Of a stretch of 64,000 bases of DNA, positions 29,465 to 55,030 are shown piece after piece. This DNA comes from Crossiella cryophila. Its GTDB lineage: Bacteria > Actinomycetota > Actinomycetes > Mycobacteriales > Pseudonocardiaceae. The translations under genes were made by a program, and so were the position numbers. Location of the stretch: assembly GCF_014204915.1 (NCBI RefSeq), contig NZ_JACHMH010000001.1:1116001-1180000 (forward strand), written 5' to 3'. Position 1 is the stretch's first letter; each line of letters begins with the position of its first letter. The notes beneath the pieces were generated by a model that was not told where the DNA came from, did no database searches, and saw only the letters and a program-made list of their open reading frames with translations.

Positions 29465-30436
29465 CTAGTCGCTCTGCTGTGACCGTTTTGCCCCGTTATG
29501 TCCCATCAGCTCCACGATCCGCTCAAGATCGTCCACGGAGCCGAATTCGAGCACGATCCGGCCCTTGCGGCGGCCGAGTTCGACCTTGACCCGGGTGTCG
29601 AAGGCGTCCGACAGTTTTTCCGCCAGGTCCTGCAGACCGGGGGCCTGGATCGGCTTGCGCGCGGCGGGCTTGGCCTTGGCGGGCAGCTCGCTCTTGGCGA
29701 GCACCACGGCCTCCTCGGTCGCCCGGACCGACAGCCCCTCAGCAATGATCTTGGCGGCCAGGTCCTCCTGACGGCCAGGGTCGTCCAGGCCGAGCAGCGC
29801 GCGGGCGTGTCCGGCGGAGAGCACGCCGGCGGCGACCCGGCGCTGCACGGGGAGGGGCAGCTTCAGCAGCCGGATGGTGTTGGTGATCACCGGGCGGCTG
29901 CGGCCGATCCGGCCGGCCAGCTCCTCGTGGGTGACCTCGAACTCCTCCAGCAGCTGCTGGTAGGCGGCCGCCTCTTCCAACGGGTTGAGCTGCACCCGGT
30001 GGATGTTCTCCAGCAACGCGTCCCGCAGCATCGCCTCGTCGGCGGTCTGCCGGACGATGGCCGGGATCCGGTCCAGCCCCGCCAGCTGCGTCGCCCGCAG
30101 GCGCCGCTCACCCATGACGAGTTCGTACTGACCCTTGCCCAGCTCCCGCACCACGACCGGCTGCATGAGCCCGAACTCGCGGATCGAGTGCTCCAGCTCG
30201 GACAGCGCGTCCTCGTCGAAGACGTGCCGGGGCTGCTTCGGGTTCGGCTTGATCGCCGCGGTCGGCACCTCGCGGTAGACCGCACCGGCCACCGAGGTCT
30301 CCGGCTCCACCTCACCCTTGGTCCGGGCGGCCACCGCGGTGGCGGTGGGGGAGGAGGCACCCGCCGCACCGGGCGGCGGGCCACTGGGGATCAGTGCGGC
30401 GAGACCTCGACCGAGCCCGCCCTTTCGTTCTGTCAT
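29465..30436 (-). CDS. parB: Chromosome partitioning protein ParB
   Basis: 323 residues. A CTP-binding N-domain ([41 protein letters not shown], about 70-160) precedes the HTH that reads parS ([23 protein letters not shown], about 172-195) and a C-terminal dimer domain. ParB loads at parS, spreads as a CTP clamp and builds the origin segrosome. ENIHR replaces the more usual ENIQR. ATG overlaps the parA stop (ATGA). Three good parS sites lie 1-2 kb upstream. Confidence 0.96.
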
Positions 30437-31416
30437 GTGGTTCCCATCTCGGCGCCGCGTACGGCGAGTTCCTTGGCTGCGTCGAGGTAGCTCATCGCGC
30501 CCCGCGAACCCGGGTCGTAGGTGATGATCGTCTGCCCGAAGCCGGGCGCCTCGGACACCTTCACGCTACGAGGGATCACGGTCTTGAGGACGCGTTCCTG
30601 GAAGTGGTTGCGCACCTCAGTGGTCACCTGGTCGGCCAGCTTGGTGCGGCCGTCGTACATGGTGAGCAGGATGGTGGAGACGTCCAGGTCCGGGTTCAGG
30701 TGCTGCTGCACCAGCTCGATGTTGCCGAGCAGCTGGCTCAGTCCCTCCAGCGCGTAGTACTCGCACTGGATCGGGATGAGCACCTCCTGCGCCGCCACCA
30801 TCGCGTTCAGCGTGAGCAGACCGAGCGAGGGCGGGCAGTCGATGAAGACGTAGTCGGGCTGCAGGGAGTCCAGCGCCTCGGGGGAGAGGGCCTCCTTGAG
30901 CCGGGACTCCCTGGCGGCCATCGAGACCAGCTCGATCTCGGCGCCGGCCAGGTCGATGGTCGCCGGGACACAGACCAGGTTGTCCGTCTGGTTGCTCGGC
31001 GCGGCCGCGTCGGCGAGCGAGATCTCGCCGATCAGCACCTCATAGATGGAGGGGGTGCCGGACCGGTGCTCGACACCCAGGGCGGTGCTCGCGTTGCCCT
31101 GCGGGTCGAGGTCGATCACCAGGACCTTGAGGTGGTGCAGGGCGAGCGCGGCGGCCAGGTTCACCGTGCTGGTGGTCTTACCGACGCCGCCCTTCTGGTT
31201 GGCCACGGTGAGCACGCGGCGACGGGCCGGGCGGGGCAACTGCAGGGCGTCGGGGTGCAGCACGCGGGTAGCGCGCTCGGCTTCCTCGGCAATGGGGGTC
31301 CACACGGGGCTCTCCTCGGGCGCGTGGGGTGTCACCGAATCCGGTGCGAGTGTTTCACGTGGAACGTGGGCCGTTTCGCGCTCCGAATGTGAAAACTGGG
31401 GCGACTCCGGCCTCAT
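30433..31416 (-). CDS. parA: Chromosome partitioning ATPase ParA (Soj)
   Basis: 327 residues from ATG 31416. Deviant Walker [14 protein letters not shown] at about residues 71-83, Walker B-like [14 protein letters not shown], and [18 protein letters not shown]. It moves ParB-parS complexes and links the origin to the pole. The ATG overlaps the rsmG stop (ATGA), favouring coupling. An alternative GTG at 31305 has a strong GAGGAG upstream and would leave the parS site 31351-31366 outside the gene; with the longer form parS encodes part of an N-terminal VPRET segment, as in other actinobacterial ParA. Confidence 0.95.
31351..31366. promoter_or_regulatory. parS site in 5' end of parA
   Basis: TGTTTCACGTGGAACG matches the parS consensus at 14 of 16 positions. 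It lies inside the long reading of parA (VPRET codons) or just before the short one. One of three clustered sites. Confidence 0.85.
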
Positions 31417-32096
31417 CCCCGATCCTTCCTTCTCCGACGCTTCCCGTCACGCCCTGGAGCGCGATCGACCACAACTACCGTCGTCGGCACCTCAAGAACC
31501 CCTTCCCCGCACACCACAATCCGACCGTTCACGCCCCCAACCGCCGCCACCGCCTGCGCGTCCCGCTCCAACTCCTCCGCCGCACTCGACCCCTTGAGCG
31601 CCAGCAGTTGCCCTTCGGGCCGAACCAACGGCAGACACCACCCGGCCAGCTTCGCCAACGGCGCGACGGCGCGTGCAGTCACTACATCGGCACCAGCGAG
31701 CTGTTCCCGAACGGCCTTCTCCTCAGCACGTCCCCGAACCACCTCGACGTCGAGGTCCAGTTCCTCGACGACCTCAGTCAGCCAGGCGACCCGGCGAGCC
31801 ATCGGCTCCAGCAGGGTGATGGAGACGTCGGGCCGAGCGATCGCCATCGGCAGTCCGGGGAGTCCGGCCCCAGAGCCGACGTCGACCACGGACACCGAAG
31901 GCGGCAGCAGATCGGCCACCACGGCCGAGTTGAGCATGTGCCGATCCCAGACCCGCTCAACCTCACGGGGCCCGATCAGCCCACGCTCCACGCCGTGCTC
32001 GATGAGCAGATCGGCGAACCGCACCGCCAGGTCGAACCGATCCCCGAACACCCGCGCCGCCAACTCCGGCACCGGCACCGTTTCACGTGAAACCAC
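31413..32096 (-). CDS. rsmG: 16S rRNA 7-methylguanosine methyltransferase RsmG (GidB)
   Basis: About 227 residues. It methylates N7 of a guanosine (E. coli G527) in 16S rRNA; loss gives low-level streptomycin resistance in several bacteria. The SAM-binding motif is VVDVGSGAGLPGLPMAIARPDVSITLLEP, preceded by the family segment RLWDRHMLNS-like VERVWDRHMLNSAV. Start GTG 32096 has GGGGAG 5 nt upstream and gives the usual length. The frame stays open far upstream, through a 13-bp tandem repeat, but homologue length and the RBS argue against that extension. parS overlaps the start region. Operon with parA and parB. Confidence 0.93.
   Translation of the reverse strand: MVSRETVPVPELAARVFGDRFDLAVRFADLLIEHGVERGLIGPREVERVWDRHMLNSAVVADLLPPSVSVVDVGSGAGLPGLPMAIARPDVSITLLEPMARRVAWLTEVVEELDLDVEVVRGRAEEKAVREQLAGADVVTARAVAPLAKLAGWCLPLVRPEGQLLALKGSSAAEELERDAQAVAAVGGVNGRIVVCGEGVLEVPTTVVVVDRAPGRDGKRRRRKDRG
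32079..32094. promoter_or_regulatory. parS site at rsmG 5' end
   Basis: CGTTTCACGTGAAACC: the 14-bp core GTTTCACGTGAAAC is a perfect palindrome equal to the Streptomyces-type consensus. It encodes codons 2-6 of rsmG (VSRET) if the gene starts at 32096. Confidence 0.92.
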
Positions 32097-32121
32097 GCCC
32101 ACTCCCCATCCCTCCAGTCGC

Positions 32122-32137
32122 CGTTTCACGTGAAACG
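32122..32137. promoter_or_regulatory. parS site upstream of rsmG
   Basis: CGTTTCACGTGAAACG, a perfect 16-bp palindrome with the full parS core, 43 bp from the neighbouring site (about four helical turns) and so on the same DNA face. Confidence 0.92.
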
Positions 32138-32242
32138 ACCACCAAAACCCAGACGCCCAATAAGACCACGAACCAAGACTCACCCCCGCCCCACCCGGCC
32201 GCCACTCACCCCCAGTTCCCCACAACCCACCCCCACCACACC

Positions 32243-32606
32243 CGCGCTTCCCGCCCGCGCTTCCCGCCCGCGCTTCCCGCCCGCGCTTCCCGCCCGCGCT
32301 TCCCGCCCGCGCTTCCCGCCCGCGCTTCCCGCCCGCGCTTCCCGCCCGCGCTTCCCGCCCGCGCTTCCCGCCCGCGCTTCCCGCCCGCGCTTCCCGCCCG
32401 CGCTTCCCGCCCGCGCTTCCCGCCCGCGCTTCCCGCCCGCGCTTCCCGCCCGCGCTTCCCGCCCGCGCTTCCCGCCCGCGCTTCCCGCCCGCGCTTCCCG
32501 CCCGCGCTTCCCGCCCGCGCTTCCCGCCCGCGCTTCCCGCCCGCGCTTCCCGCCCGCGCTTCCCGCCCGCGCTTCCCGCCCGCGCTTCCCGCCCGCGCTT
32601 CCCGCC
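32243..32606. repeat. 28 perfect tandem copies of a 13-bp unit
   Basis: The unit CGCGCTTCCCGCC (other strand GGCGGGAAGCGCG) repeats 28 times without a mismatch over 364 bp, followed by a partial copy. It lies between the khpB terminator and rsmG, about 106 bp from parS. The period of 13 is not a multiple of 3, so every frame is open and 39 bp encodes the same 13-residue repeat in all frames of one strand (GGKRGREARAGSA on minus). I see no ribosome-binding site that would make it protein. The flanks 32138-32242 and 32607-32746 show no gene. Confidence 0.95.
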
Positions 32607-32746
32607 CGCGCGCAAGCGCTGCGGGCGGGCACCGGGCACCGACCTCTCCTCGGCCTCTCACTCCAGCCGAGCCCGGACCCGCCACCCGGGTCCGTCCAAC
32701 CGCCGATCTCCCCGCCCATCTCTCCGGCCGCCCCACCCCAAAACAA

Positions 32747-32779
32747 AACGCCCGGCCGGGGAAGCCCCGGCCGGGCGTT
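32747..32779. terminator. Terminator after khpB
   Basis: A perfect 15-bp inverted repeat (AACGCCCGGCCGGGG with its complement, loop AAG). On the minus strand it is followed by TTTTGTTTTGGGG-like sequence, so it should end the rpmH-to-khpB transcript. rsmG-parA-parB would then need its own promoter in the repeat/parS region. Confidence 0.85.
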
Positions 32780-32793
32780 CTGCGTGTTCTTGG

Positions 32794-33324
32794 TCAGCTA
32801 GTCGGGAAGACCACCACGCGGCGGTGCGGCTCCTCGCCCTCGCTCTCGCTGTGCACCCCGGTGACGGCGGCGACCGCGTCGTGCACGACCTTCCGCTCGA
32901 ACGGGGTCATGGTGCGCAGGCGGATCGGCTTGGTCGTCTCCAGCACCTTCTCCGCCGTGGACTTGCCCAGCTCGCTCAGCTCGGCGCGGCGGTCGGCGCG
33001 CCACTGCGCCACGTCGAGCATCAGGCGGCTGCGGCTGCCGGTGGACTGCTGGACCGCGAGGCGGGTCAGCTCCTGGAGGGATTCCAGGACCTCACCGCGG
33101 CGACCGACGAGCTTCTCCAGGTCCTCGCCGCCGTCGATGCTCACGATCGCGCGGCCAGCTTCGACGTCCAGGTCGATGTCGCCGTCGTAGTCGAGCAGGT
33201 CGAGCAGCTTTTCCAGGTAGTCGCCCGCGACGTCGCCTTCGCGCACCAGCAGGCTCTCGTCGTTGCCGGCGTCCGGAGTAGCGGCGTCCGCTTCCTGTTC
33301 GGTCGCCTGCAAGGTCTCCGACAC
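32794..33324 (-). CDS. khpB: RNA-binding protein KhpB (Jag; KH-R3H)
   Basis: About 176 residues. An acidic N-terminus, a KH-like domain (DYDGDIDLDVEAGRAIVSIDGGEDLEKLVGRRGEVLESLQELTRLAVQQ, about 45-105) and a C-terminal R3H motif (RTMTPFERKVVHDAVAAVTGV). KhpB binds RNA with KhpA and affects cell elongation and division in Gram-positives. GTG 33324 has AAGGAGACACC before it; an ATG 15 bp further upstream at 33339 is possible but has a weaker site. Usual place directly after yidC. Confidence 0.92.
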   Translation of the reverse strand: MSETLQATEQEADAATPDAGNDESLLVREGDVAGDYLEKLLDLLDYDGDIDLDVEAGRAIVSIDGGEDLEKLVGRRGEVLESLQELTRLAVQQSTGSRSRLMLDVAQWRADRRAELSELGKSTAEKVLETTKPIRLRTMTPFERKVVHDAVAAVTGVHSESEGEEPHRRVVVFPTS

Positions 33325-33351
33325 GGTGTCTCCTTCCATATTGCAGTCGCC

Positions 33352-34428
33352 TCAGCGGCGCTTGCGGGTCTGCTTCTTGCCCGTCGACCGGCTCTGGATG
33401 ATCCCGGGGACCTCACCGGGCTTGGGGGCGGCGGAGTCCGTGGACTTGGCCGCGTCCGAACCGTTGCGCGGGGCAGTGCTCTTCTCCGACCCGGTCGAGG
33501 CGGAGGTGTCCTTGTTCTTGTCGGCCGAGGAGGTGGCAGGCGGGGCGGTGTTGGCCGGGCGCTTGCGCACCGGCTTCTGGCCGGGCTGCGGCTTCAGGCC
33601 GGGCTTGGGGCCGATGTTCTGCCGCTTCTCGATGGCGGCGGCCTTCTTCTCGTCTTCCTCGCGGTCGATGCGGTGGTACACCACGTACTGCTGACCGAGG
33701 GTCCAGGTGTTGTTGCTCAGCCAGTAGAGCAGCATCGCGACCGGGAAGAACGGGCCACCGACGAGCACCGCGAGCGGGAACAAGTACAGCATCAGCTTGT
33801 TCATCATCGCCGACTGCGGGTTGGCCGCCGCGGTCGCCGACTGGCGGGCCACCGAGTGCCGCGCGGTCAGGTGGGTCAGCGCCGAGGCCAGCACCATGAG
33901 CGGGATGGCCAGCAGCAGCAGGGCGGTGCGGTCGGTGCCGATGGTGGCCAGGTCCGCGCCGCTCATCCGGATCGCGGCGGACAGGTTCACGCCGAACAGC
34001 TTCGAGGCGAGGAAGGAGCTGACCTCGGGCTGGCCGAAGATGTAGTTGCTCGTGGCACCGGGCTTGAAGCCCTGGAGCACGTTGAGCAGACCAAGGAACA
34101 CCGGCATCTGGACCAGCATCGGGAGGCAGCCGCCCAGCGGGTTGAACCCGCCCTCGGCCTGGAGCTTCTGCATCTCCTGGGCCATGCGCTGCTTGTCGTT
34201 GCCGTACTTCTCGCGAAGCTTGGCGAGCTGGGGCTGGAACTCCGCCATCTTGCGCATCGAGCGCACCTGCTTGACGAACGGCTTGAACAGCAGCCCGCGC
34301 AGGGTGAACACGAGGAGCATCACCGACAGGGCCCAGTTCACCCCGCTGGTCTCCGGGATGACATAGCTGAGCACCTTGTGCCAGAACCACATGATGGCTG
34401 ACACGGGGTAGTTGATGAAGTCGAGCAC
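33352..34428 (-). CDS. yidC: Membrane protein insertase YidC/Oxa1
   Basis: 358 residues, the Gram-positive-like short form. N-terminal helix (FINYPVSAIMWFWHKVLSYV), then the conserved 60KD_IMP core with helices and the cytoplasmic hairpin QLAKLREKYGNDKQRMAQEMQKL, GGCLPMLVQMPVFLGLLNVLQGF, and the last helix near WTLGQQYVVYHRI. It ends in a long charged, Pro/Lys-rich tail (about 90 residues) that can bind ribosomes. It inserts membrane proteins with or without SecYEG. GTG 34428 lies 3 bp from the yidD stop. Confidence 0.95.
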   Translation of the reverse strand: MLDFINYPVSAIMWFWHKVLSYVIPETSGVNWALSVMLLVFTLRGLLFKPFVKQVRSMRKMAEFQPQLAKLREKYGNDKQRMAQEMQKLQAEGGFNPLGGCLPMLVQMPVFLGLLNVLQGFKPGATSNYIFGQPEVSSFLASKLFGVNLSAAIRMSGADLATIGTDRTALLLLAIPLMVLASALTHLTARHSVARQSATAAANPQSAMMNKLMLYLFPLAVLVGGPFFPVAMLLYWLSNNTWTLGQQYVVYHRIDREEDEKKAAAIEKRQNIGPKPGLKPQPGQKPVRKRPANTAPPATSSADKNKDTSASTGSEKSTAPRNGSDAAKSTDSAAPKPGEVPGIIQSRSTGKKQTRKRR

Positions 34429-37479: not shown

Positions 37480-37800
37480 TCTGGAGAAAGTTTCGGCGAG
37501 TTGTCCCCCATCCAGGGAGACCCGGACCACGCTCGGCCTGTGTAGAGGCTGGGTATGAACGCACCCACAGCTGGGGACAACCTTGTGGACAGCTCGGAGA
37601 TCTTGTGGATGCTCTTTGCCAACAGCTGAGTTGTCCACGGGCACCCCCGGTTTCTCACCAGTTGCCCACAGCCGTAGTCCACACCCTCAGAAACCACTTG
37701 AGCTGCGCAGACTCACCTTGTCCACACAACTCACAGCCCTTACTACTACTGCTGTCTTGATCTTTCGAAGAAGTAAAAATCAAAAGATGAACAAGCGGCG
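37480..37800. other. oriC: Chromosomal replication origin oriC
   Basis: In the 777-bp dnaA-dnaN spacer. DnaA boxes or near-boxes: 37501 TTGTCCCCC, 37572 TGGGGACAA, 37584 TGTGGACAG, 37604 TGTGGATGC, 37631 TTGTCCACG, 37662 TTGCCCACA, 37675 TAGTCCACA, 37718 TTGTCCACA (perfect). The right side, about 37739-37790, is A+T-rich (TTACTACTACTG, then GAAGTAAAAATCAAAAG) and is the probable DNA unwinding element. 37276-37480 holds no boxes or gene. Layout is that of other actinobacterial oriC regions. Confidence 0.9.
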
Positions 37801-53330: not shown

Positions 53331-55030
53331 CCGACCCCCGCACTCCACAGCCGGAGGACGGCACCGAGGCGACCCAGGAGATCCACCACCGCCAGCCCAG
53401 GGACCAGCGCCCGGAGCAGTGGTGGTCGGAGCCGGGCGCGGAAGCCCGCCCGGCGCCGCGGCGCCCGGAACCGCCGAGGGCGGAGGTGCCGCCAGACGCA
53501 CCGCGCCGCGCGGAGCCGCCCAGGGCTGAGCTGCCGCCGGACGCACCGCGTCGGGCCGAGCTGCCGCCGGAGGCGCCTCGGCGCCCCGAGCCGCCGCAGG
53601 TGTGGGTGGCCCCCGGTGACACCCCGCCCGGCGAAGGGCATCAGGGGGCACCTCGTTTCCAGGGCGAGCCGCCCCGGTCCGACCAGCCCCGCCAGCCTGC
53701 CGAGCCGCCGCGCCCGGACCTGAGGGCACCGGGCGTGCCAGGCCAGTTCGAGCCGCCCCGCTTCGAGCCTCCGCAGGATCCGCGTGGGCACAGCGAGGCC
53801 GCCCGGTTCGAGCCGCCGCGCCCACCGCAGGAAGCGCGGATGCCGGGGGAGGGGCTGAACGAGCCGCCCCGTCCGCCGATGCGCCCCAGGACCGAGCCGC
53901 CGCGAGCCGAGCCGCCGCGGGGCGCCCGCCCGTCCGCGCCGCCGCCAGCGGATGCCGAGCAGACCCAGCTCATCCCGCCGATCCGGCCGGACGCCCCGCC
54001 GCCCACGCCCCCGCGAGCCGTGGCGCCGCCGCCCACGCCGGAAGAGCTGACCATGCCGATCCCGCGCATCCCCGCGCGGCCGCGGCTGGACGAGCCGGAG
54101 ACCGAACTCATCCCGCGGGTCGAGGACTACGAGGACTACTCGGACCTGGTCGCGGCCGACCCCGAGCCGGAACCCGAGGCCGAGGCGGCCGCGGTGCCGG
54201 CGCAGCGGCGGGAGCCGGGGCGGGTCGTGGTGCGGACCTTCGGGGAGCTGCTGATCACCGCCGGGCTGGTGGTGCTGCTGTTCGTGGTCTACGAGGTCTA
54301 CGTGACCGACTGGCTCTCCGCGGGCAAGCAGGCCAACGCGACCACCGCCATGGACGACCGGTGGAAGAACCCCAGCGTGGTCAACAACAACGAACCGCAG
54401 CGGACCAACCAGTTCCAGGTCGGTGACGGGGAGGGCTTCGCCAAGGTCTTCGTGCCGGCGTTCGGGCCGGACTGGGTCTACACCGTGCTGGAGGGGACCA
54501 CGGACAAGATCCTCGAGGTCGGGCCGGGGCACTACAAGGGCACCGCCTACCCCGGCCAGCCGGGCAACTTCGCCGTGGCCGGGCACCGGGTCGGCAAGGG
54601 CGCGCCGTTCAACGACATCGACCTGCTCGAGTCCTGCGACGCGATCGTGGTGGAGACCCAGAACGAGTGGTTCGTCTACCGGATGCTGCCCAAGTCCGAC
54701 GAGGTCAAGGACTGGGCAGCCGGCAAGGGCAAGGACGCCAAGTGCAAGGGCGTCGCGCCGCAGGGCAAGGGCGGCAAGGACGATCCCTACGCCAAGACCG
54801 TCGGCCAGGAGATCGTGCGGCCGGAGCAGGGCGAGGTCATCGCGCCGGTGCCGTGGCGGGGCAACAACGCCGTGCCGCAGGGCCAGCAGGCCAAGCTGAT
54901 CACCCTGACCACCTGCCACCCGCGGTTCTCCGCCCGGCAGCGGCTCATCGTGCACGGTGTCCTGGTCCGCAGCCAGCCGAAAGATCCGAAGGATCCCAAG
55001 GCCGTGCCAGCCGAGTTCCAGACCGGCTGA
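53327..55030 (+). CDS. Class E sortase with long Pro-rich cytosolic region
   Basis: 567 residues. About 290 residues at the N-terminus are Pro/Arg/Glu-rich with short repeats (PPRAEVPPDAPRRAEPP and variants). A membrane helix (TFGELLITAGLVVLLFVVYEVYV) leads to the sortase domain (about 350-555). Catalytic His420 is in FAVAGHRVG and Cys530 in LTTCHPRFSARQR, with the C-terminal Arg following. Class E sortases attach proteins to peptidoglycan with LAXTG-type signals. Found next to pabA in many actinobacteria but absent from Mycobacterium. Confidence 0.92.
   Translation: MTDPRTPQPEDGTEATQEIHHRQPRDQRPEQWWSEPGAEARPAPRRPEPPRAEVPPDAPRRAEPPRAELPPDAPRRAELPPEAPRRPEPPQVWVAPGDTPPGEGHQGAPRFQGEPPRSDQPRQPAEPPRPDLRAPGVPGQFEPPRFEPPQDPRGHSEAARFEPPRPPQEARMPGEGLNEPPRPPMRPRTEPPRAEPPRGARPSAPPPADAEQTQLIPPIRPDAPPPTPPRAVAPPPTPEELTMPIPRIPARPRLDEPETELIPRVEDYEDYSDLVAADPEPEPEAEAAAVPAQRREPGRVVVRTFGELLITAGLVVLLFVVYEVYVTDWLSAGKQANATTAMDDRWKNPSVVNNNEPQRTNQFQVGDGEGFAKVFVPAFGPDWVYTVLEGTTDKILEVGPGHYKGTAYPGQPGNFAVAGHRVGKGAPFNDIDLLESCDAIVVETQNEWFVYRMLPKSDEVKDWAAGKGKDAKCKGVAPQGKGGKDDPYAKTVGQEIVRPEQGEVIAPVPWRGNNAVPQGQQAKLITLTTCHPRFSARQRLIVHGVLVRSQPKDPKDPKAVPAEFQTG

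Follow-up and report, generated by a model that had tools for sequence, protein, structure and literature searches.

The gap between khpB and the parS/rsmG block of the soil bacterium Crossiella cryophila holds a perfect tandem array of a 13-bp unit, which raises the question of whether the array is a working part of the partition region or spare DNA expanded by replication slippage. The window, that is, the whole stretch of 64,000 nucleotides analysed, gave 12 TRF rows in all. The array had 28.5 copies of CGCGCTTCCCGCC (32241–32611) with a period of 13, a match of 100% and a score of 742, and the next-highest score in the 64 kb was 141. A pattern scan found 28 exact tandem copies at 32243–32606, and the nearer parS ended at 32136, 106 bp before 32243. 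A sequence-only reading of this DNA had reported 28 perfect copies about 106 bp from parS, and both observations were confirmed. We consider it likely that the array is a recent, lineage-specific minisatellite in spacer DNA, grown by replication slippage. Since the relatives lack the array or carry different ones, recent slippage in spare DNA is the most likely origin, rather than a working partition part. The features of the locus are as follows.

29465–30436, minus strand: parB (TIGR00180, 201.4 bits, above the cut-off).
30433–31416, minus strand: parA-like gene (ParA family matches, all below the cut-offs).
31413–32096, minus strand: rsmG (TIGR00138, 131.5 bits, above the cut-off), with a GTG start at 32096 deduced from the frame through parS.
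32080–32093, no strand: exact parS GTTTCACGTGAAAC, overlapping the deduced rsmG start (pattern match).
32123–32136, no strand: exact parS GTTTCACGTGAAAC (pattern match).
32154–32174, minus strand: candidate rsmG promoter block CGCCCAATAAGACCACGAACC, 66 bp from the array, identical in the sister strain Crossiella sp. S99.2 and nearly so in congener G004 (alignment).
32241–32611, no strand: minisatellite, 28.5 perfect copies of CGCGCTTCCCGCC (minus strand GGCGGGAAGCGCG; TRF and pattern scan).
32241–32611, minus strand: 14 non-overlapping predicted quadruplex motifs G3+N1-7 (G3-N1-G3-N6 repeating), found by regular expression, with 0 on the plus strand.
32601–32629, no strand: hairpin CCCGCCCGC-11 nt-GCGGGCGGG with a 9-bp perfect stem, abutting the array and including its last unit.
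32747–32779, minus strand: hairpin 3′ of khpB with a 15-bp stem, a presumed terminator without a T run (by eye).
32794–33339, minus strand: khpB/jag-like gene (NF041568, 114.1 bits, below its cut-off of 145).

The genes yidC, khpB/jag-like, rsmG, parA-like and parB lie on the minus strand, and dnaA and dnaN on the plus strand. Among the gene names proposed earlier, RsmG and ParB (also DnaA, YidC and DnaN) exceeded their NCBIfam cut-offs, whereas KhpB/Jag and ParA remained below theirs. The khpB terminator proposed in the same reading corresponds to the 15-bp-stem hairpin, but the T run is absent. The scan of 31350–33400 returned 0 sigma-70 promoters and 0 T-run terminators; the promoter role of the 32154–32174 block is putative because it has no sigma-70 consensus match. 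A hairpin similar to that at 32747–32779 was seen by eye in four congeners. With the hairpin 3′ of khpB on one side and the candidate promoter of rsmG on the other, the array probably sees little transcription and is probably nearly neutral. The window contained 23 DnaA-box-like matches. Six of them (1 exact, 5 with one mismatch) cluster at 37572–37726 in the dnaA–dnaN interval, which places oriC approximately 5 kb to the right of the array. We infer a replication fork that crosses the array leftward, with the G-rich minus strand serving as the template of the lagging strand. Imperfect 30/45-bp tandem repeats also occur at 53456–53597 of the window, and they are perhaps coding because their period is a multiple of 3.

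The unit was searched for in the window and in the whole genome (10,058,141 bases, single contig), C. cryophila being covered by one assembly. With up to 2 mismatches, 42 matches to CGCGCTTCCCGCC were found in the 64-kb window. The 28 exact ones all lay inside the array, and the other 14 carried 2 mismatches each, against a chance expectation of 13.2. The two-unit pattern (up to 3 mismatches) matched 27 times in the whole genome, and 27/27 matches lay inside the array. This is the only array of the unit in the 10.06-Mb genome. A genome-wide role of the unit was rejected, its array standing at this locus only. The array was also considered as a parS-like element and rejected: the window held 4 parS matches with at most 1 mismatch, none of them within the array.

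Five Crossiella genomes were compared, namely the window genome (G000) and the congeners G001, G002 (the sister strain S99.2), G003 (Crossiella sp. SN42) and G004. Alignment of the gap flanks between the window genome and S99.2 gave identities of 97.0% (3107 columns) and 97.1% (2414 columns), and KhpB was 100% identical. In the S99.2 gap, the array is absent and a single unit is present at the same spot, beside the hairpin. The minus strand reads GCGCGGGCGGGAGGCGCGGG in S99.2 and GCGCGGG(CGGGAAGCGCGGG)n in the window genome. The S99.2 seed is GCGCGGG-CGGGAG-GCGCGGG, in which one unit lies between 7-bp direct repeats GCGCGGG spaced exactly 13 bp apart, and the window unit differs from this single-copy unit by one base. 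The S99.2 assembly is apparently short-read. We take its single unit as real, since a collapsed long array should leave several units. The spacers adjoining the array differ between the two genomes at 9/85 and 21/110 aligned columns (gap columns left out), whereas the 28 copies are mutually identical. The array is therefore either younger than the split of the two strains or homogenised by ongoing slippage. The single unit in a 97%-identical sister supports the recent expansion proposed from the sequence and the idea of a slippage tract as such. Presence does vary among close relatives, which the same proposal had named, together with a lack of effect on parAB/rsmG expression or growth, as counting against it.

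Birth of the array would start with misalignment between the 7-bp GCGCGGG repeats during replication, giving the first 13-bp duplications. Later slippage, perhaps with recombination, would have lengthened the tract and held its copies identical. The hairpin at its end and the quadruplex-prone G runs on the presumed lagging-strand template would favour slippage; both aids are correlations.

The gap is occupied differently in the other congeners. The two-unit match with up to 3 mismatches was found in 0/4 of them. G003 and G004 each carry CGGCTGG (7 bp) × 8.4, and G001 carries two arrays, CGGAAGCCCGGTC (13 bp) × 11.2 and GGGCGGAGTGCC (12 bp) × 15.8. The G003 contig ends within the gap, so more gap sequence may be absent from it. 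In total, 4/5 Crossiella genomes hold gap arrays of 98–100% match, built from 4 different units, and 1/5 holds none. As in minisatellites, whose unit falls within about 10–100 bp, the window array is head to tail (13 bp × 28.5, 100%), and its presence and length vary between close relatives, with one unit in the sister and other arrays in the other congeners. The spacer thus appears permissive and its exact sequence dispensable, because congeners grew other near-perfect arrays there.

Five units, including that of the family genome G078, were compared as cyclic words against shuffles, giving 10 pairs. The G001 13-mer agreed with the window unit on the same strand at 10/13 positions (counted by hand from the score). 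This likeness was equalled by 1.5% of 400 shuffles, as one of 10 pairs and uncorrected. The G001 12-mer scored at shuffle level, and for the short C-rich 7-mer the strand-aware shuffles give no meaningful test. Both the window array and the G001 13-bp array lie on the parS side of a GCTTGC hairpin. The two units may have diverged from one ancestral seed, or the likeness may be due to chance. The two arrays may also descend from a common seed, even from an old array since lost in S99.2.

The survey was extended to two partly overlapping sets (e.g., G022 and L023): named khpB loci, limited to the best 80 of 479 relatives, and 40 of the 114 matched family genomes outside the genus. Of these 40, 35 had no more than 5 contigs, among them 26 with a single contig, and the other 5 were taken in addition. 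With minimum thresholds of 3 copies and score 60, gap rows occurred in 5 of the best 80 loci (L022, L024, L032, L085, and L097). A match of 90% or more was reached only in L022, L085 and L097, the first of these being Crossiella SN42 itself. In 4/80 loci (L022, L089, L097, and L100) the stored sequence showed no rsmG, which leaves the gap open-ended. Gap arrays (at least 3 copies, 85% match, score 50) were present in 2/40 family genomes, G078 (CCCGGATG × 13.2) and G100 (15-bp unit × 4.9), both of genus g43; the third g43 member taken, G046, had no gap array. Across the 40 genomes, the gap length ranged from 6 to 3721 bp (extrapolated gene ends). A parS core lay within the gap in 37/40, and the other 3 gaps were 83, 6 and 9 bp. 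The khpB–rsmG spacer reached 1.6–3.7 kb in L024, L082, L085, L094, L096 and the G026 gap (L167), and many other loci had less than 250 bp.

The functional proposals of the sequence-only reading are mostly unsupported. The minus strand of the array is G3-C-G3-N6 throughout, with at least four G3 runs and loops of 1–7, and qualifies as a predicted quadruplex-forming repeat. Against its 14 motifs stand 7 elsewhere in the window and, in an 800-kb genome sample, no more than 8 per 371 bp. The densest sample cluster, 8 motifs within 371 bp, lies on the minus strand of L113 (G000:C1:2650001–2670000). The window array is thus the densest cluster seen, on a single strand, and the 14 potential quadruplexes could, independently of exact sequence, insulate the rsmG–parAB promoter from khpB or form a topological barrier between the two, or affect the fork near oriC. 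We regard this structural role as unlikely, with the array absent in the sister and its unit absent in 4/4 congeners. The G001 and G004 arrays, moreover, hold no four-run G3 motif. Quadruplexes are therefore not needed for array birth, and they make a weak candidate for the cause of every array.

By eye, a GCAAGC/GCTTGC hairpin flanks the window array as well as each of the two G001 arrays, and the array-side hairpin is also present in S99.2 with a shorter outer stem (7 bp). Perfect stems of at least 9 bp occurred in 1.0% of 1500 random noncoding 53-mers. Stems of at least 8 bp were found at 2/20 flanks of 10 arrays (window and L123), against 2.3% of random noncoding 53-mers; this test allowed loops of up to 12 nt and so overlooked the hairpin next to the 12-bp array of G001. 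The idea that every array needs an adjacent hairpin is weak, since most arrays checked had no strong one beside them. Fold z-scores were unremarkable for four window stretches (−1.35 to +0.03), and among three congener stretches only L019 3410–3470 was notable (−3.91). The single-strand fold energies of the array were ordinary.

The recurrence of arrays in one gap counts against the slippage-born minisatellite, as it could reflect selection for some array. The background was estimated with an array search (at least 4 copies, 90% match, score 80) applied to 40 stretches of G000 beyond the window, 800 kb in all, and to 400 kb of G001. The G000 sample gave 5 arrays, 4 of them noncoding, with 134.6 kb noncoding by a crude GC-frame gene call. 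The G001 sample, with 61.3 kb noncoding, gave 4 rows, of which 2 came from the gap itself, 1 was noncoding elsewhere and 1 was coding. The gene caller is rough: the rsmG of the window escaped it, and it labelled one of the gap arrays as coding. Outside the gap there were 5 noncoding arrays per approximately 196 kb, 2 of which (L129 and L146) belong to a dispersed GTTGGCC family. By post hoc hand arithmetic, approximately 0.07 arrays would be expected in about 2.8 kb of array-free gap sequence from five genomes, against 3 or 4 births seen; the births fall by one if the attention-drawing array is left out, and they may be non-independent. The recurrence suggests that the khpB–rsmG gap is a slippage hotspot.

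Three array sites of G000 were traced into the congeners as controls under relaxed minimum thresholds of 3 copies and score 40. At the L123 site, the unit was found in 0/3 other congeners, the fourth having no usable match. At the L134 site, a related 3.6-copy array was present in S99.2 and an imperfect 10-bp row × 3.6 in G004, with none in G003 or G001. Here, GGGCTGC × 12.6 at L134 17548–17635 of the window genome stands against GGGCAGC × 3.6 at about the same place in S99.2 (L207 1454–1478), and this pair is a second lineage-specific expansion. At the L136 site, the unit was found in 0/4 others, three of which carried imperfect rows of other units at 76–81% match (13 bp × 3.9 in S99.2, 18 bp × 5.3 in G004, and 18 bp × 7.4 in G003). 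This spacer holds GGGGCT × 16.8 in the window genome, with imperfect other arrays at L218 2471–2563, L219 2398–2528 and L217 2613–2663, and it is a second candidate for recurrent array birth. No congener had the same unit in as many copies at any of the three sites. These sites indicate that lineage-specific arrays are ordinary in Crossiella. The khpB–rsmG gap is a rich array site whose uniqueness is not proven, and the 10/13 unit likeness and the arrays of the L136 spacer weigh oppositely on the hotspot reading. The gap might be a true birth hotspot in which a long tract of largely free sequence is selected because a structured barrier between khpB and parS–parAB near oriC is useful. To this we assign a slightly smaller chance than to the structural role above; if it is true, the tract could, for example, limit ParB spreading or read-through.

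The dispersed GTTGGCC-core family is a separate observation. It has a 22-bp period (about GTTGGCCGTTNTNGTACGNNGT) and is abundant genome-wide in G000. Its sites include C1:143792–143944 (L229 1490–1660) and L129 3270–3443, with others in L146 (G001) and L202 (G002). Triple matches in the genome numbered 162 forward and 183 reverse (overlapping), against 0 for the reversed-pattern control, and 16/17 matches in the 800-kb sample were noncoding by the crude gene call. Arrays of this family face each other at several places and would make a long multi-unit inverted repeat. A two-unit match to the family was found nowhere in the window.

Changes in copy number by slippage might shift promoter spacing or supercoiling, so that rsmG and parAB expression would vary between cells. 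A long perfect tract that stands 66 bp ahead of the candidate promoter fits such a contingency tract, but it lies upstream of the conserved block and not within it. Housekeeping genes are also unusual targets of contingency tracts. We consider this explanation improbable.

The sequence-only reading had also offered an iteron-like protein-binding array, to which a ParB-accessory array or partition element may be added. The position of the array (106 bp from parS, approximately 5 kb from oriC) recalls the iterons of plasmids and some origins, which are likewise short direct repeats near an origin, and the same-gap 13-bp array of G001 with its 10/13 likeness gives a shared element a small chance. 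Iterons, however, as a rule stay the same in kind from one close relative to the next, whereas the unit of this array is absent from the congeners (0/4 at up to 3 mismatches, one 10/13 13-mer), whose gap holds other arrays or none. The same-gap 12-bp and 7-bp units resemble the window unit no more than same-strand shuffles do, and 13 bp is no helical multiple. Neither an iteron-like role nor a partition element finds support here, and we give such an array very little credence.

Equally little weight falls on the possibility that the assembler made the array or its copy number. Short reads make it hard to assemble a perfect repeat of 371 bp at its true copy number, but the 10.06-Mb assembly is one contig, the unit is the real single-copy unit of the sister but for one base, and comparable arrays occur in other assemblies. 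Translation of the array as a repeat N-terminal extension of RsmG can practically be dismissed: a 408-aa open frame, which the sequence-only reading did not mention, does run on the minus strand through the array into RsmG, and remains open 151 codons upstream of parS in the array-less S99.2, but the frames close 55 (G004) and 48 (G001) codons upstream, the RsmG profile begins at residue 207 of 408, and the array's openness is trivial, since a minus-strand unit that lacks T cannot give a stop in any frame. The array is likely untranslated, as had been held before.

The slippage-born minisatellite has parallels in known repeats. Like bacterial minisatellites (VNTR) as a class, the array consists of perfect head-to-tail units longer than 9 bp, is intergenic and lineage-specific, and has a short-direct-repeat seed; unlike them, one gap here spawned several different units within one genus. 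The heptamer repeats of Xanthomonas (GGGAATC) and Nostoc, as described in PMC4692102, can form quadruplexes, with one unit at many, rather conserved places. They share with the Crossiella array a tandem, mainly intergenic, G-rich and potentially quadruplex-forming nature. Those heptamers occupy many loci, whereas the Crossiella array is a single locus with a 13-bp unit that is not conserved. No publication on this array was found in the literature library searched. The seed allele of S99.2 and the perfect 28-copy tract form an unusually clean before/after pair for the birth of a minisatellite in a high-GC bacterium. The recurrence of different tracts in one parS-side spacer would allow origin-near slippage hotspots to be tested against structural selection.
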